Virus record (IMG/VR): IMGVR_UViG_3300007963_000040
Location: 1 to 25,915 of that record
Direction: 5' to 3' (one strand)
From: a virus
Length of the DNA stretch: 25,915 bases
The notes beneath the pieces were generated by a model, which was not told the origin of the DNA, ran no database searches, and saw only the letters and a list, made by a program, of their open reading frames with translations. This document shows, in pieces, positions 2,865 to 23,840 of the stretch (positions within the stretch are counted from its first letter, which is position 1; every line of letters begins with the position of its first letter). Both the position numbers and the translations under genes were made by a program.

Positions 2865-4382
2865 TTATTCTCCTGTAGCTGGGTCTGTTCCGTCATTCAG
2901 AACGGATGCGCCATCTTTGCTCGAAGACAATGTGACGCCGTAAAAAAACTCTACACTTAATGCCGATGATTCTATTAGGTTCGTTGCGAGCAGTCCACCG
3001 CCTGGCCAGAAGTAGTTCTCTCTCCAGGTGGCGAGCGTTTGTGCGGAAAGGCCAAGGGCGTGCCACACGTTGGGATCCTGGCCCCACTGCCACGAAAAGT
3101 TTTGATTTGCGTCACCGTCCGGCACAACTAGTGGCGTCCCTCCTGCCTCTGTTCGGTCGCCGCCTGGTTGGATCAGGTTAACAGACATGTCTGAGTAAGA
3201 GGATACAAACTCAGCCTTTGTTCCAGATGTATCCGTCTGCACCCTTCCGTAGTGCATGGCTGGGCGGTACTTCAGAGAAAAGTTGTACTTGCGTCTACCT
3301 TTAAGCTCTACTACTCCAACGACCCTGTATGTCCCCTTCTGTCGAACGTTTAGGGATAAGTCTGTTATCTTCTTCCATGACCTACTCTTAGAAACTCCAC
3401 TTGGTTTCGTTCCTCTGTACTCGCCGTCCGGGTCATCTCCTATCCATGGATTGAAGCCATGACCTGTGTACAATGCTGTGTTCCCGTAGTCATTGCCATT
3501 GTAAAATTCGTCATCGAACACGATGGGGTTGGTGTCTACAAACAAGCCAAGCCGCAAGTACGCCGAGTGCTGCATTCCTTCTGCAAAGTTGGCGCCAACA
3601 TTGAAAAAGTCTACAACCCTGCTAACGTCTACTGACTCTGACTCGGTTCCGGTTGAACCGCCTGGCCAGGTAACGTCTATGGTTTCACTATCAAACCTGG
3701 AGCTAGTGTTTGTTCCAGTTGCCCTCAGTATGGGGGTGAGCAGGTAGTTCCCGGTGACTTGCGCTGTGATAACTGCAACGCACGGCTCATCTACATACAC
3801 AGACCCGGCTGCATCTGGAACTGTTAGCCACCTAGACCAGCATTCATCTTTTGGAAACCTGTCTAGTGGGGAGTTCGGTGGGGGCCAGTTGTCGCAAGAA
3901 AGGCCGTGGACTGATGAATAGTAAGAAACCGGGTCTGGAAATCCTTGCTCTTGAAAGTCGTAGTAAAGTGAACCACCAGGGTATCCAAGCAGCTCAAACG
4001 GATCATCATTTGGAAAGTCACTGGCTGTGTTTGTGTTTTTCTCTACGTCATATCCCCTGCTGGATAGGCTTTCATCAACGGCGTAGTCCTCCATGGATAG
4101 CCCATGTTGATTAATAAAAGTAACTGACTTTGATCCGTCAATCCAATTGTTCTCAAAAGTTGCAGTAGACGCTACATCTCTTGCTTGAGCATAGCCCTCT
4201 GCACCAGTGTTAAAAGATGCGATCTTTCCGCCAGTGTACCTTCTGATCTTAAACTTGCCAATCTTCCCGTTAAAGTCAGACTGCTGCACTCTCTCCTTCA
4301 GGAAGTCCTCAAGCTCCGCAAAGTTATCATCTACGATCTCTGCGTCAAGTTCGCCAGATACAGAATTCAGTGTAATCGGCAT
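2865..4382 (-). CDS. Tail fibre / receptor-binding-like virion protein (505 aa)
   Basis: ATG at 4382 overlaps the stop of the preceding 267-residue gene in a TAATG junction. The first 45 residues are acidic and helical, with a segment (VDDNFAELEDFLKERVQ) that resembles in spacing the N-termini of the next two upstream genes. The remaining 450 residues are rich in Ser, Thr, Gly, Asp, Tyr and Trp with little charge clustering, as expected of beta-rich fibre or spike proteins. No enzymatic (lyase or hydrolase) motif is recognised. Its place downstream of the nozzle-like gene and beside two similar proteins suggests an adsorption-apparatus component. The exact role is unknown. Confidence 0.6.
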   Translation of the reverse strand: MPITLNSVSGELDAEIVDDNFAELEDFLKERVQQSDFNGKIGKFKIRRYTGGKIASFNTGAEGYAQARDVASTATFENNWIDGSKSVTFINQHGLSMEDYAVDESLSSRGYDVEKNTNTASDFPNDDPFELLGYPGGSLYYDFQEQGFPDPVSYYSSVHGLSCDNWPPPNSPLDRFPKDECWSRWLTVPDAAGSVYVDEPCVAVITAQVTGNYLLTPILRATGTNTSSRFDSETIDVTWPGGSTGTESESVDVSRVVDFFNVGANFAEGMQHSAYLRLGLFVDTNPIVFDDEFYNGNDYGNTALYTGHGFNPWIGDDPDGEYRGTKPSGVSKSRSWKKITDLSLNVRQKGTYRVVGVVELKGRRKYNFSLKYRPAMHYGRVQTDTSGTKAEFVSSYSDMSVNLIQPGGDRTEAGGTPLVVPDGDANQNFSWQWGQDPNVWHALGLSAQTLATWRENYFWPGGGLLATNLIESSALSVEFFYGVTLSSSKDGASVLNDGTDPATGE

Positions 4383-5185
4383 TAGTAGTCCCTCGCCACC
4401 AGCATTAGGTACAGTCTATCAAGCCGTGATGGCCTGCTCCTTACGTGCCCGAACGGGCCACCCAGGATGTTCTTGGTGATAGTCCACGTATCTCGCGTGT
4501 GGTTGTTCTTAAACATCATACCAAACGCATCTACATTTACAAGGTCTCCTTTCTTTAGAGACACTGTGCAGATGATGGGGCCACCATACCCCACTGTTCC
4601 CGGCCTATCATAGCTGCCCACCCCAGTTCTAGATGTGGGCGCTGCTATCAGGTATGGGTGGCGCACTACGCCGTTTCTTGATGGGTCATACGGCGGCTGC
4701 TCCTGTCCGCTCCAGAACCCAACTCCCATTCCGGCAAACCTGCTCTGGTCAGCAATGCGTGTCCAGTTGCCAGTGTTCTTGTTTCTAAGAGCTGGCGCGA
4801 CCTTGATTGAGTCTGAAACACTGTACGGATAATACCAGAAAGAGAACTCGACCAACTCCTGATCGCCGGGCGCTCCTGCTGGTAGTTCAAAATCTAACTG
4901 TAAGGTATTGCTTGCTGTCGAAGAAGAGTCAGAGTACAAATTCCAAGTATCATCATAGGCAAAGAAGTGTGATTCGTTGCCGTTCCAAATAGCATCACCA
5001 CAGTCTTTGAATAGCATAAGTGTTGGTGGCCTGGCCATGTGTCTGAATCTTATTGTCTCATCCCGTAGGTTGTCTTTGGTAAACTTAGTGCTATTTACAT
5101 AATCAAGGAAGTCATCCTTAATTGTGTTGTAGTCTGACTCGCTAGGCTTAGAGCCTAATCGTTGTGAGAAGGTAAACCTTGGCAT
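4382..5185 (-). CDS. Fibre-like virion protein (267 aa)
   Basis: ATG at 5185 lies in a TAATG overlap with the upstream 253-residue gene, and its own stop overlaps the next start in the same way. Residues about 15-48 form a helical segment with FLDYVNSTKFTKDNLRDE. This layout (hydrophobic helix, Asn, then a D-N-L/I-R element) recurs in the 253-residue neighbour. The rest is beta-rich, with many aromatic and Gly/Asn/Ser residues. No known catalytic motif is visible. It is the middle member of three consecutive fibre-like genes. I infer a shared virion-attachment N-terminus with a divergent exposed domain, but no named family is recognised. Confidence 0.6.
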   Translation of the reverse strand: MPRFTFSQRLGSKPSESDYNTIKDDFLDYVNSTKFTKDNLRDETIRFRHMARPPTLMLFKDCGDAIWNGNESHFFAYDDTWNLYSDSSSTASNTLQLDFELPAGAPGDQELVEFSFWYYPYSVSDSIKVAPALRNKNTGNWTRIADQSRFAGMGVGFWSGQEQPPYDPSRNGVVRHPYLIAAPTSRTGVGSYDRPGTVGYGGPIICTVSLKKGDLVNVDAFGMMFKNNHTRDTWTITKNILGGPFGHVRSRPSRLDRLYLMLVARDY

Positions 5186-5946
5186 TATCTATTCCGCTTC
5201 CTAAGAACCATCGTTGCCTGCAAAACATTCAGGTCTGCACCAGGCTCGGTGTAAAGAACAACGCCTACGTTTCCTGTGCATCGAGGTAAGTGAACAGAGC
5301 CACAACCAGATAAATGGTAATACACGTAGTTCGCAATAAACGGCTTATTAATCCAGTATGTAGTATCCTCTCCTAGTCCAACCGGTGACTTGCTTATGCT
5401 CTCATGGGCGATGTTTCTCATTGCCCCTTTCTTTTGGTATTCCTCCCAGTTTTCAAAAGCCGCCTCGTAAGGATCGTCATCTGTGTTGAACCCTGTCACC
5501 GATGGGCCGTGTGCGGTTGCTCCACGAGCTACACCATTGTTGAACCATCCAACCAAAGCTTTGAAGTCCTGAGCAGCTCCAGCCATCCGGTCGCCAATGA
5601 ACGGAACTCCCCCGGCAAAGCAGGCATTCCTGGTCTTAGCTTCCACGTTCCATGTTATCCAGTAGTCACCAGAAACATCTAAAGACTCAATACTCGCAGA
5701 CAACGCTATCAGTGTTCCGGTGTCATTGGAAACTTTGCCCTTCTCCACACCAGTTGAAGAAAACCCTGCGCTGGTCTGTTCTATAAATGCCTTAGAAAAG
5801 AAGTGTGGATTTGAGAATTGATTTCTAGCTATGTTGTCGCTATCCAGACCTGAAAACCTATTGGCCCACTGAAGAAAGCCCTCCCACAGCTTTCTCTTAT
5901 TTAGGGCGTCATTTTCAGATATTAGATGTACGCGAGTTTCAAACAT
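5185..5946 (-). CDS. Fibre-like virion protein (253 aa)
   Basis: ATG at 5946; the stop overlaps the ATG of the 267-residue gene (TAATG). The N-terminus has a helical segment with FLQWANRFSGLDSDNIAR, matching in layout the N-terminal segment of its downstream neighbour. The remainder is beta-like, with a Cys/Gly/His-containing C-terminal strand region (about residues 210-245). No catalytic residues are identifiable. As the first of three such genes after the nozzle-like protein, it is probably an adsorption-apparatus or fibre component. This rests on position and composition rather than on a recognised domain. Confidence 0.6.
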   Translation of the reverse strand: MFETRVHLISENDALNKRKLWEGFLQWANRFSGLDSDNIARNQFSNPHFFSKAFIEQTSAGFSSTGVEKGKVSNDTGTLIALSASIESLDVSGDYWITWNVEAKTRNACFAGGVPFIGDRMAGAAQDFKALVGWFNNGVARGATAHGPSVTGFNTDDDPYEAAFENWEEYQKKGAMRNIAHESISKSPVGLGEDTTYWINKPFIANYVYYHLSGCGSVHLPRCTGNVGVVLYTEPGADLNVLQATMVLRKRNR

Positions 5947-11254: not shown

Positions 11255-11710
11255 CTAGACAGTTACGTAGTTAATGTTAACGCGACAAGTTACGCCTGTT
11301 CCGCTTTGAGCGGCAACCTTCATAGCAACTCGCGTGTTAGCAGGGATGTTTGCCATTGAAACGGGGATTGTTGGTGCGGTAGCAGTTGCCCCTACACCTA
11401 CAACAAACGTTCCAATTTCTGCACCACCAGCACCTAGGGCGGCACCAGTTGTTGCGCCAGTAGCAACCGTAATGTGAAGCCTAGTCGCGGCACTGAAGCT
11501 ATCAGCCATAACACTAGTGATACGAAAATCACTAGTGATACCGCTTGCAGCGACAACCTCAACATAGTCTCCGGCTGTACCGGCAGTAGAACCATCGGAA
11601 GTCAATTGAATTCCGTTGGTTGCCCCTGTAGGGAGTACAGCCATCGTTCCCGTTGTAGCGGGAACAACAGCATCCTTAATCCGTCTAGCTAGCATCATGT
11701 TACCAGGCAT
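11255..11710 (-). CDS. Small Ala/Thr-rich head protein following major capsid (151 aa)
   Basis: ATG at 11710 has GGAG six bases upstream and lies 9 bases after the end of the major capsid gene. After a short basic start (MMLARRIKDAVV) the protein is Ala/Thr/Gly/Val-rich and beta-like throughout, with almost no charged residues. Small, uncharged beta proteins encoded right after the major capsid gene are commonly decoration or head-stabilising proteins. That is an inference from position and composition. No specific family is recognised. Confidence 0.55.
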   Translation of the reverse strand: MPGNMMLARRIKDAVVPATTGTMAVLPTGATNGIQLTSDGSTAGTAGDYVEVVAASGITSDFRITSVMADSFSAATRLHITVATGATTGAALGAGGAEIGTFVVGVGATATAPTIPVSMANIPANTRVAMKVAAQSGTGVTCRVNINYVTV

Positions 11711-14108: not shown

Positions 14109-15985
14109 GCGCTCCTAGTCATTCCAGATAGCGCGTTAGCCAGGTTCGGTGGCGATGCTGACTGTGACTGGTCAGTTGGCCCTCTTCCTGGGTTCGGGTT
14201 CAGTTGTGATTGTAGCCCAGCTTGCGGTTGAGGTGAACCCAAAGCTGCCAAATCTTCTTCACCAGGCATAGGTACTTGCGGTTGCTCTTGCCTAACGGTG
14301 TCTGGAGCCCACCCGAAAACGCGAGCAACCTCTTCTGCAACTTTGCGCCAATCATATTGCTGCGAAAGCTCTGGGTTCATCGAAACTGTTCGGATGAACT
14401 GAGTGTACAACATCTTGTCCTCAGTGCTTGGGTCTGGTCCCATATCACGAACATCAATCTGGTATACTAGCGACGTAGTAAAATCATGCGTTCCTTGATC
14501 AAAAGTAACAACGCGATGACCGTACTTATATTGTTGCTTCTTTCCATGGAACAGCCCCAAGATGAACATTAACTTAGTTACTGCCTCTTGTGCCGACTCT
14601 GCAACAAGTTCACGCATTCCGCTGATAATCTGGTCTGTGGCTTCCATTAGTGCAGATGTTTGTCTAGCACTAATCTTCTTAACCGCCTGGCCCTTGTCAA
14701 TCTCAGAAGTCGCTGTAGATTGCTGCGCTATCTCACGCAAGAACCTAATGTAGCTAATCTTATTCATATCAATACCGGGGCCGCGCTCGATCTTGATTCC
14801 TTCTGCGCGATTAACTTTGATTGCTCCACGGTACGATGGGTTAAGAAGTTTCTTTAAGTCGTCATCTTTTGCATTTGCCGTCTGGTCAACAATAATCTTT
14901 GGATTGAGACTATCTAGCATATCCTGATCTATAGACTTTAGTGCAATGGAGTACATATCAGAAACAGGAACAATATCATCTACTACTGTGCGCTCCAAGA
15001 ACTTGCCCATCTTTGTGAGCTTGACTGGTGTATACGGGGTCATTCCGCCCCATGGGTTCGGCATGTCCCTGAGAACAGCGGTGGGCTCACCTAGAACCCA
15101 CGATGAGTACCAGTTGTTGTAGTTTGAATTAAGTCGATCACGCTTAATCCAGCATTCACAGATTAGTACACACTCGTCACCTAGGTAGTCGAAGTCAACG
15201 CCAGGGAACAGGCTCCAATACTGTCTTGAAATTCCCTTCATTGCAGACAAATCACCGCCTGTCAATGTCTTGATTTCGTCTACTGTCAGTATTCTTAATC
15301 TTGCGACGTAGTCTGCATCTAGGTAGTTCTCTATATCAGTAGGCGTTATGATGTGTTTTCCATTTACATACGTAAGGTATGGAAAGCCGATGCCGGTGTC
15401 GTTAAACACTGGAGACGGCTCCTTGTCCACGCCTGTAAGAAACTGGTCTGGGTCAAAATCTAAAGGCGAAAGCCTGTCAACCTTCTCAAGGTCAATTCCC
15501 TGCGCTGACGCCATGTTTGGATCTACTTCTTCCCACTTTGATTCAAGTGTGGATGGGTCTGTGACGTTCTTGTTTATCCCTGCGTACTGGTTTGGGTTGA
15601 GTCCAAACGCAGCGTATGGGTGGCCTACCTCAAGCCATCCCATGGAATACGTGGAGAACATCGTTGCCTGTCGCAACGCATCCTTAAGACGTACAATTCT
15701 AGACAAGTCGTTTGCAACAACCTCTAGGTCATTTGCGTTAGATGCAAACGTTGTATCCGCTGCCCTAACCTTAATGGTGGGCTCCTTGTTGACAACCCTA
15801 TGGTAAATGACTTTCTCAAACTCGCGGACTAGGTTTCCCTTGAAAACGGCGTTGTTGCCGTACCGGTCCTTAGAGTCATTTCTTACGTACTTCTCGTTCA
15901 TGTCCCATATTTTATCTAGGTTAGACATGCGGTTACGTAAATCTCTACGTACTCGTTGATCCCATTTTTCAAAATCAAATGCCAT
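14105..15985 (-). CDS. Portal protein
   Basis: 626 residues; ATG at 15985 is preceded by GAGGT and overlaps the TerL stop (TAATG). The position between TerL and the scaffold/coat genes is that of the portal, the dodecameric ring through which DNA enters the head. The N-terminal 130 residues are helical and charged. The central region is a mixed wing-like domain with Trp/Tyr-rich strands. Residues about 400-480 form a long helical region (REIAQQSTATSEIDKGQ, IISGMRELVAESAQEAVT) suiting the portal stem/crown. The last 60 residues are Pro/Gln/Gly-rich and probably disordered. Length is typical of podovirus portals (about 500-750 residues). Confidence 0.85.
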   Translation of the reverse strand: MAFDFEKWDQRVRRDLRNRMSNLDKIWDMNEKYVRNDSKDRYGNNAVFKGNLVREFEKVIYHRVVNKEPTIKVRAADTTFASNANDLEVVANDLSRIVRLKDALRQATMFSTYSMGWLEVGHPYAAFGLNPNQYAGINKNVTDPSTLESKWEEVDPNMASAQGIDLEKVDRLSPLDFDPDQFLTGVDKEPSPVFNDTGIGFPYLTYVNGKHIITPTDIENYLDADYVARLRILTVDEIKTLTGGDLSAMKGISRQYWSLFPGVDFDYLGDECVLICECWIKRDRLNSNYNNWYSSWVLGEPTAVLRDMPNPWGGMTPYTPVKLTKMGKFLERTVVDDIVPVSDMYSIALKSIDQDMLDSLNPKIIVDQTANAKDDDLKKLLNPSYRGAIKVNRAEGIKIERGPGIDMNKISYIRFLREIAQQSTATSEIDKGQAVKKISARQTSALMEATDQIISGMRELVAESAQEAVTKLMFILGLFHGKKQQYKYGHRVVTFDQGTHDFTTSLVYQIDVRDMGPDPSTEDKMLYTQFIRTVSMNPELSQQYDWRKVAEEVARVFGWAPDTVRQEQPQVPMPGEEDLAALGSPQPQAGLQSQLNPNPGRGPTDQSQSASPPNLANALSGMTRSA

Positions 15986-18108
15986 TACCAGACCTCTATG
16001 CCGTTGCTCTCAAAGATTGATTCCATAGAGTCTGCCGGAGGTGGGGGTGGTACAGGATCAGGAATACTTTCTATCATACGCCCTGTCAACCCCACACGGC
16101 AAACTTCCGCGTGCCCGCGAGCAAAAATACAATCGTCATGCTTACCAGAGCTGGGCTCTACCTTGCCATTCGCCTTACGTACAAGGCTTTTCATCTCATC
16201 GAAAAGATGCCGAGAAAGTACCCTACTTGGGTCGTCTCGTATCGCTGCCCGGAGCATATTCAGGAACGGAATACGAGCGCCAGGGCCAACGATGGACCAA
16301 GCAAAATCAGATACGCGACCCCTAGAGTCGTCACGATAATAAACATTCGGATAGCCCGTGGGTTCAAAAAACGCCCACACCGTCGCGCCATCTTTATTCC
16401 TTTCGCAATTGATCCGAGCGTCATTGTAGAACCTGCCGAGCAAGATTAAATAATACGCGAATTCCTCTGGAGGAATCCTGTCTCTAAACATTGCGACATC
16501 GCGACCGAATTCATCAAGAACCCAGATAACGGAAAAGTCAGTCTCAGACTTGGACCCACTTGTCACCATCTTGCCTTCTGATACGTCAGCGCCAATGAAG
16601 TACCTCATGCCTTCTTCGGGCATGTGCCATATCCTAAGCGTACCGTATGGGTCCGGCGTAACCTTTGCCTCTATGTTTAGCGCGGAGGTTAGTTGCAGTG
16701 TTGTTATCGGTTGTCCAACGTGCTCTATCCGCCCTATGAAGCAAGGCTCTTTGTGTTCTATCCTGCTGATGACACTGTGCGGGAAGAAGCCAACACCAAG
16801 ACTTGACCAGGCATGGTCAGGGCTTGTTGGGTACTCTTGATCAAACATTGTCCTGTCGCCACCAAATCCGGTTGGCGCTGGTGCCTTGATCTTCATCCTG
16901 CGCCACCACACTTGGTCATACGCAAGGTTGTACTTCTTGGCGAACTCTTCCTCTGTTACCGATATATTACCCTCGCCATCCGTTTCACAGACTTCAAGGT
17001 CATCGTTGAGCCACTTGAATTTGCCTTTGTGGAATGCGCGCTTCGGCGGGGTCTTCCTGTACTCTTCAGAGATGTACCAAGGAAGAAAGATAGGAACCAC
17101 CCGTACATCGGAAAAATCATCTTGTCCTTCGTGGATGCGAACCCAGTCAGACTTGAAATCGTCGAAGCCTTCGGCTGTCGATTCGTCCACAACAATCGTG
17201 TGTCTGCCCGTTGGGATTGCTGGAAGGATGGAAGCCTTAACTTGCTGCGATCTTCCTTCCGGCCACTTCGGTCGCTCAGACTGGTGCAAAGCCTGGAGCA
17301 TTTCCGAAGTACCTGGGTTCGGGGATTCAGCAGACTCAAGTAGGATTCTGCTGCCGTTAGTTAGCTCTAGAACCTTTGATGACCTACGCTTAACGGTTGG
17401 CAATCCTGGGAATCTTTCTGCTGCGTACTCAATCCATGATATAAGCATCTGGCGCTTCTCTTCAAGGTGAGCGCCCTTATCGATCATGAACATTGCAGTG
17501 TATCCTTCAATCTGGTAGCAAATCCAAATCCAGAATACAAGGAACATTGTCGTCACACCAAGCTGTCGTGACTTAAGTATCTGCAAGCGAACGGGTACAT
17601 GTTTATTAAAAAACAAATCAATAGCAATTGAAGCTATCTTCCTCTGTGCAGAGGTAAGAAGGAACGGCCCATACCCGCCATGCTCGCAGTGGTCTGCCAT
17701 TCCAGGCCGATACTTAATCTTAATGGCTTCGTGACAAAACAGAGTGAAGTCGCTAAGGATGTCTTCTACTGTAATATGTTTAGTATCGACATCAAAAACA
17801 CCACCAGTAGTATCATCAGGAGCAGCATCTTCGTCTCGTCTTCCGGCTTCATCTGGAACGACAAGGTAGTCTTCTTTGTCCATCAGTGCGGACTCTAGAG
17901 GTGAAACGCCAACAGTTCTTACGAATAACTCAAGCGCCTGCTGGTCAAGCTTCCTAAAGTCTATGTCCTGGTCGGACGACTCCGCCAGCTCATGGAATGT
18001 AACAATCCAGCCTTTAAGCTCCTCATCGTCAGGAAAGCCTAGTGACTTTGCCTTCTTCTCGATGTAAGCCTCTGTGTCTAAGCAGAGGTTTGGCTTAAGA
18101 TTCTTCAT
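15985..18108 (-). CDS. terL: Terminase large subunit (packaging ATPase and nuclease)
   Basis: 707 residues. The ATPase domain shows a Walker-A-like KSRQLGVTT (about 179-187), a Walker-B-like element ending in LHQSE (about 274-278), and a coupling motif DESTAEG (about 308-314). The nuclease domain has the RNase-H-type acidic residues expected of TerL: IGADVSEG (Asp near 508), INCERN (Glu near 569) and GKHDDC (Asp 658/659). The Walker A lacks the usual Gly-Lys (GV instead of GK), with the conserved basic residue earlier in the motif, as seen in many terminases. The C-terminus is Pro-rich (PPPPPA). It packages phage DNA by ATP-driven translocation and cuts concatemers. It overlaps the small-subunit candidate and the portal. 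Confidence 0.95.
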   Translation of the reverse strand: MKNLKPNLCLDTEAYIEKKAKSLGFPDDEELKGWIVTFHELAESSDQDIDFRKLDQQALELFVRTVGVSPLESALMDKEDYLVVPDEAGRRDEDAAPDDTTGGVFDVDTKHITVEDILSDFTLFCHEAIKIKYRPGMADHCEHGGYGPFLLTSAQRKIASIAIDLFFNKHVPVRLQILKSRQLGVTTMFLVFWIWICYQIEGYTAMFMIDKGAHLEEKRQMLISWIEYAAERFPGLPTVKRRSSKVLELTNGSRILLESAESPNPGTSEMLQALHQSERPKWPEGRSQQVKASILPAIPTGRHTIVVDESTAEGFDDFKSDWVRIHEGQDDFSDVRVVPIFLPWYISEEYRKTPPKRAFHKGKFKWLNDDLEVCETDGEGNISVTEEEFAKKYNLAYDQVWWRRMKIKAPAPTGFGGDRTMFDQEYPTSPDHAWSSLGVGFFPHSVISRIEHKEPCFIGRIEHVGQPITTLQLTSALNIEAKVTPDPYGTLRIWHMPEEGMRYFIGADVSEGKMVTSGSKSETDFSVIWVLDEFGRDVAMFRDRIPPEEFAYYLILLGRFYNDARINCERNKDGATVWAFFEPTGYPNVYYRDDSRGRVSDFAWSIVGPGARIPFLNMLRAAIRDDPSRVLSRHLFDEMKSLVRKANGKVEPSSGKHDDCIFARGHAEVCRVGLTGRMIESIPDPVPPPPPADSMESIFESNGIEVW

Positions 18109-22057: not shown

Positions 22058-22594
22058 CTAAAAGAAGTTCAGCGGCGAGTCAGATGGCGAATCCGACTCA
22101 CCGCTGGACCGAATAGTGGTGTCTGCGTCACCTTTACTCTTCGCTATCGAGGGCGTACCCTCCGACCGCAAGGAAGATGATTGTTCCGCGCCAACGGAGT
22201 CACCCTCGGATGCTTTAGGTCGGCTGGATTCATCAGACCCACCCTGATGAACGGTGGGAGATGCCTCGGCGTCCCGCAGTGGACAACCGATTTCCATAAG
22301 GAAGATGGCATCCTTGTATGCCCGCTGCTGGTAGAACTCAGAGAGTTCATCTACGCTGCATTGTCTAGCCGCGTTGCGAGCAGCAGAAAGCACCTTTCTA
22401 GGTGGTTTTCCGCCACGCAACTGAGGCATGACATTGAACAAGGATTCAGCTTTGGACATACCACAAGAATATAGTATACGCGCGCGCGAGGCAAGCCAAA
22501 GCTTCCGAGAATTCTGTGGAGAAGCCGAAGCAGTACCATCCCATCGTGACTTACAATGCGCGCAGTGGCGGTCCATGAAACATGGATATTGCAT
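22058..22594 (-). CDS. Ser-rich protein of unknown function (first late gene); start uncertain
   Basis: The longest frame starts at ATG 22594 (178 residues), with another ATG at 22459 (133 residues, MSKAESLF...). Neither has a clear Shine-Dalgarno. If the longer start is used, the N-terminus has CAHC (about 11-14) and a later lone Cys at 44, a possible weak metal site. Residues about 60-110 are helical (RKVLSAARNAARQCSVDELS). The last 70 residues are Ser/Asp/Glu/Gly-rich and disordered, ending LNFF. It is the first gene of the leftward unit, just downstream of the Fur-box/AT-palindrome region. No function is recognised. Confidence 0.55.
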   Translation of the reverse strand: MQYPCFMDRHCAHCKSRWDGTASASPQNSRKLWLASRARILYSCGMSKAESLFNVMPQLRGGKPPRKVLSAARNAARQCSVDELSEFYQQRAYKDAIFLMEIGCPLRDAEASPTVHQGGSDESSRPKASEGDSVGAEQSSSLRSEGTPSIAKSKGDADTTIRSSGESDSPSDSPLNFF

Positions 22595-22612: not shown

Positions 22613-22629
22613 ATATTATTTAATAATAT
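22613..22629. repeat. Perfect AT inverted repeat over candidate leftward -10
   Basis: ATATTATT and AATAATAT flank a single T: an exact 8-bp inverted repeat. It overlaps both candidate leftward -10 elements, so it may act as an operator or an easily melted site. Confidence 0.7.
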
Positions 22630-22641: not shown

Positions 22642-22657
22642 ATCGCAGCAGCGTTTT

Positions 22658-22676
22658 GATAATGATAATCATTTTC
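22658..22676. promoter_or_regulatory. Fur-box-like operator
   Basis: GATAATGATAATCATTTTC differs from the classical 19-base Fur consensus only at one position (A to T at 17). The site sits about 30-60 bases upstream of the candidate leftward -10 and about 64 bases upstream of the first late-gene ATG, in the divergent region. Fur is the ferric uptake regulator of many bacteria and normally represses with iron. Binding here is predicted, not shown. Confidence 0.6.
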
Positions 22677-22778
22677 ATTTGGCCGCGTAACATGTTGGTC
22701 ACTGATTGTCCAATACTTTTTTGTCAAATCTTGCCCCATATCATTTTTTTAGGTCATGGTCAATAGTGATTCAGCGAT

Positions 22779-22840
22779 TTGACATGATTCATACAAGAGG
22801 GGTCAGGCTTTTTTCCATTCCCTTGACATTTCCTTGACAT
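22779..22840 (+). repeat. Three TTGACAT copies spaced by multiples of 11 bp
   Basis: TTGACAT occurs at 22779, 22823 and 22834. The last two form an 11-bp direct repeat (CCTTGACATTT and CCTTGACATCT), and the first lies 44 bp before the second, so all would face the same side of the helix. None has a -10 box at 16-18 bp, which argues for protein-binding sites rather than simple -35 elements. Confidence 0.5.
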
Positions 22841-23020
22841 CTTTCCTCCCCCACGTCGGTCGATAGTGTGCTACATTTAAGTCATAGAGAGGAACACAGA
22901 AAAGCACAGAAAAGAAAAGCAAATCAAATGTTGCACACCCGAGCGGATAGGTTAAGTAAATAGGGATAGCAACGAAGACCACAAACAAGGAAGGTCACAA
23001 CGAAAACAAGCAAGCACACG

Positions 23021-23326
23021 ATAGCCAGGTAGGACGCTGGTCAGCTATTCAGTTAGCAACATCGGTCCCATGCTACGGCATGGAGTAGGTGGACCAGAGT
23101 CACGGCGACCAATCACACGGATAACCACAGGGTTAGAGCCTGTTAATGCCAGCCAACGCGTAGAGGTACGCAACGGTGTGAGACGAGTCACCTGGATATA
23201 GCGATCGTAGCATCGTATGGACTGGTGTGCGAGCGATGACAACATAGCCGAAAACATGTACAAGACCTCCGGGTCCGTGAAAAACAGCGCACGCCATCGC
23301 GCGACGGCATACACCTAACGACCTAT
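23021..23326 (+). other. Hairpin-rich candidate leader segment
   Basis: Several short inverted repeats follow each other: ATAGC/GCTAT with inner CAG/CTG (23021-23048), CCATGC/GCATGG with a 4-base loop (23068-23083), GCGTA/TACGC with loop GAGG (23158-23171), and a near-palindrome around TCGCGCGA (23292-23309). No gene is convincing here. A structured 5' leader or small RNA of the rightward unit is possible; folding has not been computed. Confidence 0.35.
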
Positions 23327-23531
23327 GCGGTTACCACCGCGCAAGGTTTAGCAGACGGGCAAGGCTGCAAGGTGTGAATAGGGGTCGGACTGACAATCCG
23401 GCAGCATGGTAACGGGTGACGAGCACCGTGTAGCTTTAAGCGCACACGGGTCGCCAAGGACTCACCGAACGCCAAGCGAGAAACCCAACGCCCCTTGCCC
23501 CCATTTCACCTATTTCTTTTTTGGAGTCATT

Positions 23532-23840
23532 ATGGATTATGAACTTGGATACGGTAACGCATGGCGCAAGCAAGTAGGCATACCGTCTAACCGCTCGCGC
23601 AAGTGTTACCCGAAACGTACCCCACAAGGGCTACAAGGCCCGGCTAAACGTGCTTGGCAGCACGTATGCAAGTCAGTAGGCAAGCGGTACAGGTACACCC
23701 TGACGCTATGCGAGAGACGATATATCACACTGAAGGTCAACGGCGAGCCCGTCGTTATCTTCATCGACCACGCTGATGGTAGCTACAATTACTATTGGGA
23801 ACGCCATGCAATAGCGATTATTCGCAAGGCACGCAAGTAA
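23532..23840 (+). CDS. Small basic protein of unknown function (102 aa)
   Basis: The frame is open from 23406, but the ATG at 23532 has GGAG eight bases upstream and begins a typical protein (MDYELGYG...), so this start is preferred. The protein is basic (many Arg/Lys, and a CYPKRTPQG segment). It has two short strand-like stretches in its second half (RYRYTLTLCERRYITLKVNG and EPVVIFIDHADGSYNYYW), giving a compact alpha/beta or beta look. No family or motif is recognised. It is the first clear gene of the rightward unit and is isolated by about 400 non-coding bases on its right. Confidence 0.7.
   Translation: MDYELGYGNAWRKQVGIPSNRSRKCYPKRTPQGLQGPAKRAWQHVCKSVGKRYRYTLTLCERRYITLKVNGEPVVIFIDHADGSYNYYWERHAIAIIRKARK

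Follow-up and report, generated by a model that had tools for sequence, protein, structure and literature searches.

The main early/late control region of an uncultured tailed phage appears to contain an operator for the Fur protein of its host, or for a close member of the Fur family, and this is the reading of the sequence that we favour. The phage is represented by a virus record of 25,915 bases, which was analysed over its whole length and is referred to here as the window. The Fur box GATAATGATAATCATTTTC (22658-22676, plus strand) matches 18 of the 19 bases of the consensus GATAATGATAATCATTATC, as had been reported in the preliminary description, with a single mismatch. Viewed as a 7-1-7 motif it consists of two overlapping cores that both match at 14 of 15 positions, TGATAATGATAATCA (22657-22671) and TGATAATCATTTTCA (22663-22677), and it is near-consensus and palindromic as a Fur box of the 7-1-7 or 6-6-1-6 type. 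The parts of the proposed role differ in strength: the box is very probably bound by a Fur-family protein, it would with moderate probability change phage transcription with iron, and a specific action on the late operon is doubtful.

A first-order Markov model gives an expectation of 4e-6 for matches of at least 18/19 over both strands of the whole window, and of 5e-7 for the 811-bp intergenic stretch only; these values apply to the Fur motif alone, among the many motifs that a reader could have noticed. None of 100 shuffles contained any match to the Fur consensus, even with up to three mismatches allowed, so that the earlier judgement that chance is unlikely holds. The accompanying concern that AT-rich DNA had produced the match falls away, since the intergenic stretch around the box is 52% A+T and, at the expectation found for it, AT-richness does not explain the match.

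Support that is independent of the Markov odds comes from the conservation of the element in a diverged relative. The terminase of the phage was found in nine contigs at 77-88% identity, with one further partial copy at 83%, and four of the contigs (L004, L005, L008 and L009) could be read through the late genes and their upstream region. Two contigs were left out: L006, which encodes proteins like those of L008 and begins after the region, and L001, the nearest relative, which does not reach it. No DNA relatives were found in the annotated phage collection, neither the first late gene nor an early gene led to any relatives, and the aligned second late protein returned only contigs that were already known. 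In L008, the terminase of which is 78% identical to that of the window phage, the Fur element occurs twice in the phage's own divergent region, with position and orientation unchanged. When the two control regions were oriented alike, their top local alignment was this very element, AGCGTTnTGATAATGATnATCAnnnTCATTTnGC in the window (22650-22683, plus strand), which spans 34 bp, encloses the Fur box and is identical at 28 positions (score 38); the maximum among 200 shuffles was 27 and none reached 38. The two L008 cores, a perfect 7-1-7 core TGATAATCATTATCA (chance expectation in that divergent region 1.6e-5) and a 14/15 copy TGATTATCATTATCA, lie in a 31-bp tandem repeat, a spacing of about three helical turns that would suit cooperative binding on one face of the DNA. 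Beyond the Fur core, the window and L008 also agree in the flanks AGCGTT and TCATTT(G/A)GC, a point in favour of a common ancestry of the element.

The preliminary description had looked to conservation in related phages, which stood for L008 and did not for L004, L005 and L009: no Fur core within two mismatches was found anywhere in these three contigs, and the L005 region has a 10-base gap. The box is thus kept in one of the four readable relatives, and since the other three do without it, it is dispensable in phages of this type. Any of the records may be a fragment, which makes absence weak evidence. In a tree of the terminase and the protein at the portal position the two carriers fall in different well-supported clades, each together with a non-carrier; the element is therefore either ancestral, with at least two losses, or has moved between phages.

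This patchy occurrence bears on two further explanations. The first is a chance resemblance without function, in line with which the box is absent from three relatives and perfect 7-1-7 cores also lie inside the ORFs of other viruses (57 of 118 survey sites among the matches listed), so that a large collection does contain Fur cores of chance origin. The low Markov expectation for the window, the homologous doubled element in L008 and the failure of all 200 shuffles to reach its alignment score make this very improbable. The second, that the 31-bp repeats are iterons of a replication origin beside an AT-rich stretch, would suit the tandem copies in L008 and the AT near-palindrome in the window. 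Yet the window has a single copy, consensus sites for DnaA and IHF are absent from the regions of both phages and the element is missing from three relatives, and we consider an origin scarcely probable as well.

The box lies in a divergent control region, in agreement with the original description. The leftward genes start at either 22594 or 22459; the latter, an ATG, is more likely and is the start that homologues suggest for the first leftward (late) gene (22058-22594, minus strand). The rightward genes start from about 23406. They begin with a presumably early gene (23406-23840, plus strand); neither of these first genes has an assigned function, and the small unassigned rightward genes as a whole are probably early. 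The leftward genes form the structural and packaging operon and include a major head protein (phrog_9953) and a large gene (15985-18108) with distant similarity to annotated large terminases; the large gene adjoining it would, by position only, encode the portal. The early side of L008 encodes an SNF2-type helicase, a PD-(D/E)XK nuclease and a primase/helicase-like protein. The genes on either side of the box have no Pfam match and are common to the relatives as ordinary phage genes, and no iron gene was recognised adjoining it. The records of L004, L005, L008 and L009 yielded no integrase. A Fur protein borne by the phage was rejected as the reader of the box, as neither the window nor any of nine other phage records contained a recognisable Fur gene, and a host protein is therefore the likely reader.

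Which promoter such a protein would act on is less clear-cut. A block of the form CTTGCCTC(CG)n followed by an AT-rich hexamer (about 22468-22495, minus strand) is shared with L004 (about 5840-5860), L005 (L027), L008 (about 6780) and, in weaker form, L009 (about 1050), and in each of the five phages it immediately precedes the first late gene. It resembles a late promoter. Its architecture would be unusual for a promoter, with a spacer made up of alternating C and G (CTTGCCTCGCGCGCGCG). The distance from the Fur box to this block is ~160 bp, and the Fur site may just as well act on a separate promoter of its own or on the early genes. Control of the leftward late operon, to which the box had originally been tied, is for this reason not upheld: a link with the late genes is possible and is not favoured over a nearer or an early promoter.

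Between the box and the late block lies the AT near-palindrome ATATTATTTAATAATAT (22613-22629), previously pointed out beside the box and present there, with a weak leftward promoter-like hit at 22641-22615. Of the candidate -10 elements that had been proposed beside the box, weak hits do exist, and promoter-like hits near it are no more numerous than in shuffles; no convincing promoter was found to overlap it. No terminator-like hit was found at the box, and an RNA element at this position was rejected (no Rfam match, weak folding). Elsewhere in the region, a conserved block of 19/20 bp, ACAAGACCTCCGGGTCCGTG, stands isolated at 23260-23279 (L004, about 4989-5008), in a long untranslated stretch before the early genes; it has no Rfam match and is possibly a leader RNA element. 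A twin TTGACAT block, CCTTGACATTTCCTTGACATCT (22821-22842, plus strand), is shared with L009 and may be a phage-specific operator or promoter element. Its form CCTTGACATTTnnTTGACATCT, with two TTGACAT copies 11 bp apart, occurs at these positions in the window and three times in L009 (678-708, 756-786 and 823-853).

These repeats raise the question of whether a repressor or activator encoded by the phage uses the palindrome as its operator, with a resemblance to a Fur box that is accidental. Other repeat arrays are found in the same region, namely TGTTGAACA palindromes in L008 and TTGACAT blocks in L009 and the window, from which it follows that phage-specific operators are probably present there, and the unassigned early genes could encode such a regulator. 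However, the L008 array stands in addition to the Fur boxes and does not replace them, the match of 18/19 is to a well-known host motif with a perfect core in L008, and the same 19-mer precedes iron genes in bacteria. We therefore regard a phage-specific operator as unlikely, and retain a host Fur-family operator as the preferred reading.

The bacterial occurrences of the 19-mer are extensive. The exact sequence was found in at least 118 stretches of bacterial genomes, whereas by arithmetic about two would be expected by chance in 257 billion bases, and it was intergenic at 75 of the 80 bacterial loci examined. Bacteria with the exact 19-mer are mainly Bacillota among the matches listed. Twenty nearby proteins, chosen for their short distance to the box, were scanned. 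Eight were binding proteins of the Peripla_BP_2 family, which comprises siderophore and haem binding proteins, and the others included FTR1, ChaN, two Fur-family regulators, two solute-binding proteins, an ABC ATPase and a ZIP transporter; four had no apparent tie to metals. The sequence of the phage box is thus also found ahead of genes of bacterial iron regulons. It behaves, as far as these neighbours indicate, as a Fur-family operator in many bacteria, although the Fur motif of the phage's own host may differ. The earlier description is borne out as regards a Fur-type operator sequence between divergent phage genes: the sequence is kept in one diverged relative and is the same as sites ahead of bacterial iron genes.

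A related possibility is that the reader is Zur, Mur or PerR, and that the signal is zinc, manganese or peroxide and not iron. It is generally known that Zur or PerR sites resemble the Fur motif in some bacterial groups, and the ZIP-type transporter, one of the 20 scanned neighbours, belongs to an Actinomycetota MAG. No related prophage that would name the host of the phage was found in the genome collection, and no tRNAs were found as host clues. Against a reader of this kind, iron-type genes make up most of the scanned neighbours of the identical 19-mer, which renders one of these other regulators quite improbable and leaves Fur itself as the preferred reader.

Fur-like boxes were also observed in other phages. 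The exact 19-mer is present in five other viral contigs. Three of these (L014, L015 and L017) are cyanopodovirus-like and carry it after the terminase gene; the L015 terminase is 83% identical to that of Tangaroavirus isolates, and the isolated Tangaroavirus cyanophages yielded no Fur box at that position. In L015 (5409-5467) and L017 (5300-5358) a promoter-like pair (TTCTCA or TTATCA, 17 nt, TATAAA) sits between two Fur-like boxes, and the locus in L014 is at 4379-4437. The first box differs in sequence between L015 and L017, with its Fur-likeness kept. In L018, a GC-rich phage contig, the 19-mer (11658-11676) is situated 32 bp upstream of a gene that by eye resembles an amidase endolysin, and this site could be of the Zur type. 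In one phage family (L051, L074, L076, L152, L197, L225, L239, L240 and L250) the sequence TGATAATNATTATCA, often extended or doubled, lies between the same two genes (MTNTNKVV... and MVNDSNRD.../MRVGGV...) at 11 of 11 sites among the matches listed.

Phage lambda contains a perfect core, TGATAATCATTATCA, at 48452-48466 of J02459 (553-567 of our locus L268), about 50 bp from the right end and beside cosQ. Many lambdoid prophage contigs likewise have a perfect core, for example at 7254-7268 of L104, with a small ylcI-like gene on one side and the gene for the terminase small subunit on the other. The open-access literature yielded no paper on the lambda core, and an earlier report may exist elsewhere. 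The idea that Fur cores are enriched in the intergenic DNA of viruses in general was considered and dropped. Among the matches listed, the raw counts were 61/118 intergenic cores versus 15/80 in a dinucleotide-matched control, and after grouping by family they became 23/66 versus 14/65 (p = 0.12).

Two iron-linked phage systems described previously can be compared with the window. In the lambdoid phages that encode Stx1, mutation of the Fur box in the stx1 promoter and deletion of fur show control by host Fur (PMC5552940). Both are Fur sites in phage DNA, with reading by host Fur shown for stx1 and predicted for the window. The stx1 box, however, serves an accessory toxin gene, whereas the window box is located in the main divergent region, and no accessory gene was recognised beside it that would make it a toxin promoter of the stx1 type. 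A prophage operon of Clostridioides difficile has a conserved predicted Fur site, as the window has in its phage DNA, and its expression is altered in a fur mutant (PMC6311696). There the prophage is integrated and its host is known; the phage of the window is uncultured, and no integrase was found in its relatives. Lambda, the lambdoid prophages and the window, all from tailed phages, are alike in having a 7-1-7 Fur core outside coding DNA. The lambda core adjoins cos and the terminase small subunit, whereas the window box is 4.5 kb from the terminase gene and does not show the cos-adjacent position. The cyanopodovirus-like contigs have the same 19-mer in a non-coding control region and an aquatic phage-type genome. 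They belong to an unrelated lineage, and their box follows the terminase gene, unlike that of the window.

With regard to mechanism, we infer Fur binding, the metal, the affected promoter and an effect that represses and does not activate. In a host replete with iron, Fur loaded with metal would occupy the 34-bp element and repress the adjoining promoter or bias it in some other way; under iron shortage, the site would empty and transcription would shift. Repression by metal-loaded Fur is the usual mode of this regulator and is expected here for that reason.

It may be that host Fur sites arose independently in the core control or packaging regions of several unrelated lineages, namely the group studied here, the cyanopodovirus-like phages and the lambdoid phages with a core beside cos. 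We put this forward tentatively, as rather unlikely; if true, infection or lysogeny in those lineages would be tuned to host iron. Iron limits growth across much of the ocean, and with a main control region responsive to the host iron regulator, the outcome of an infection would depend on how much iron is available.
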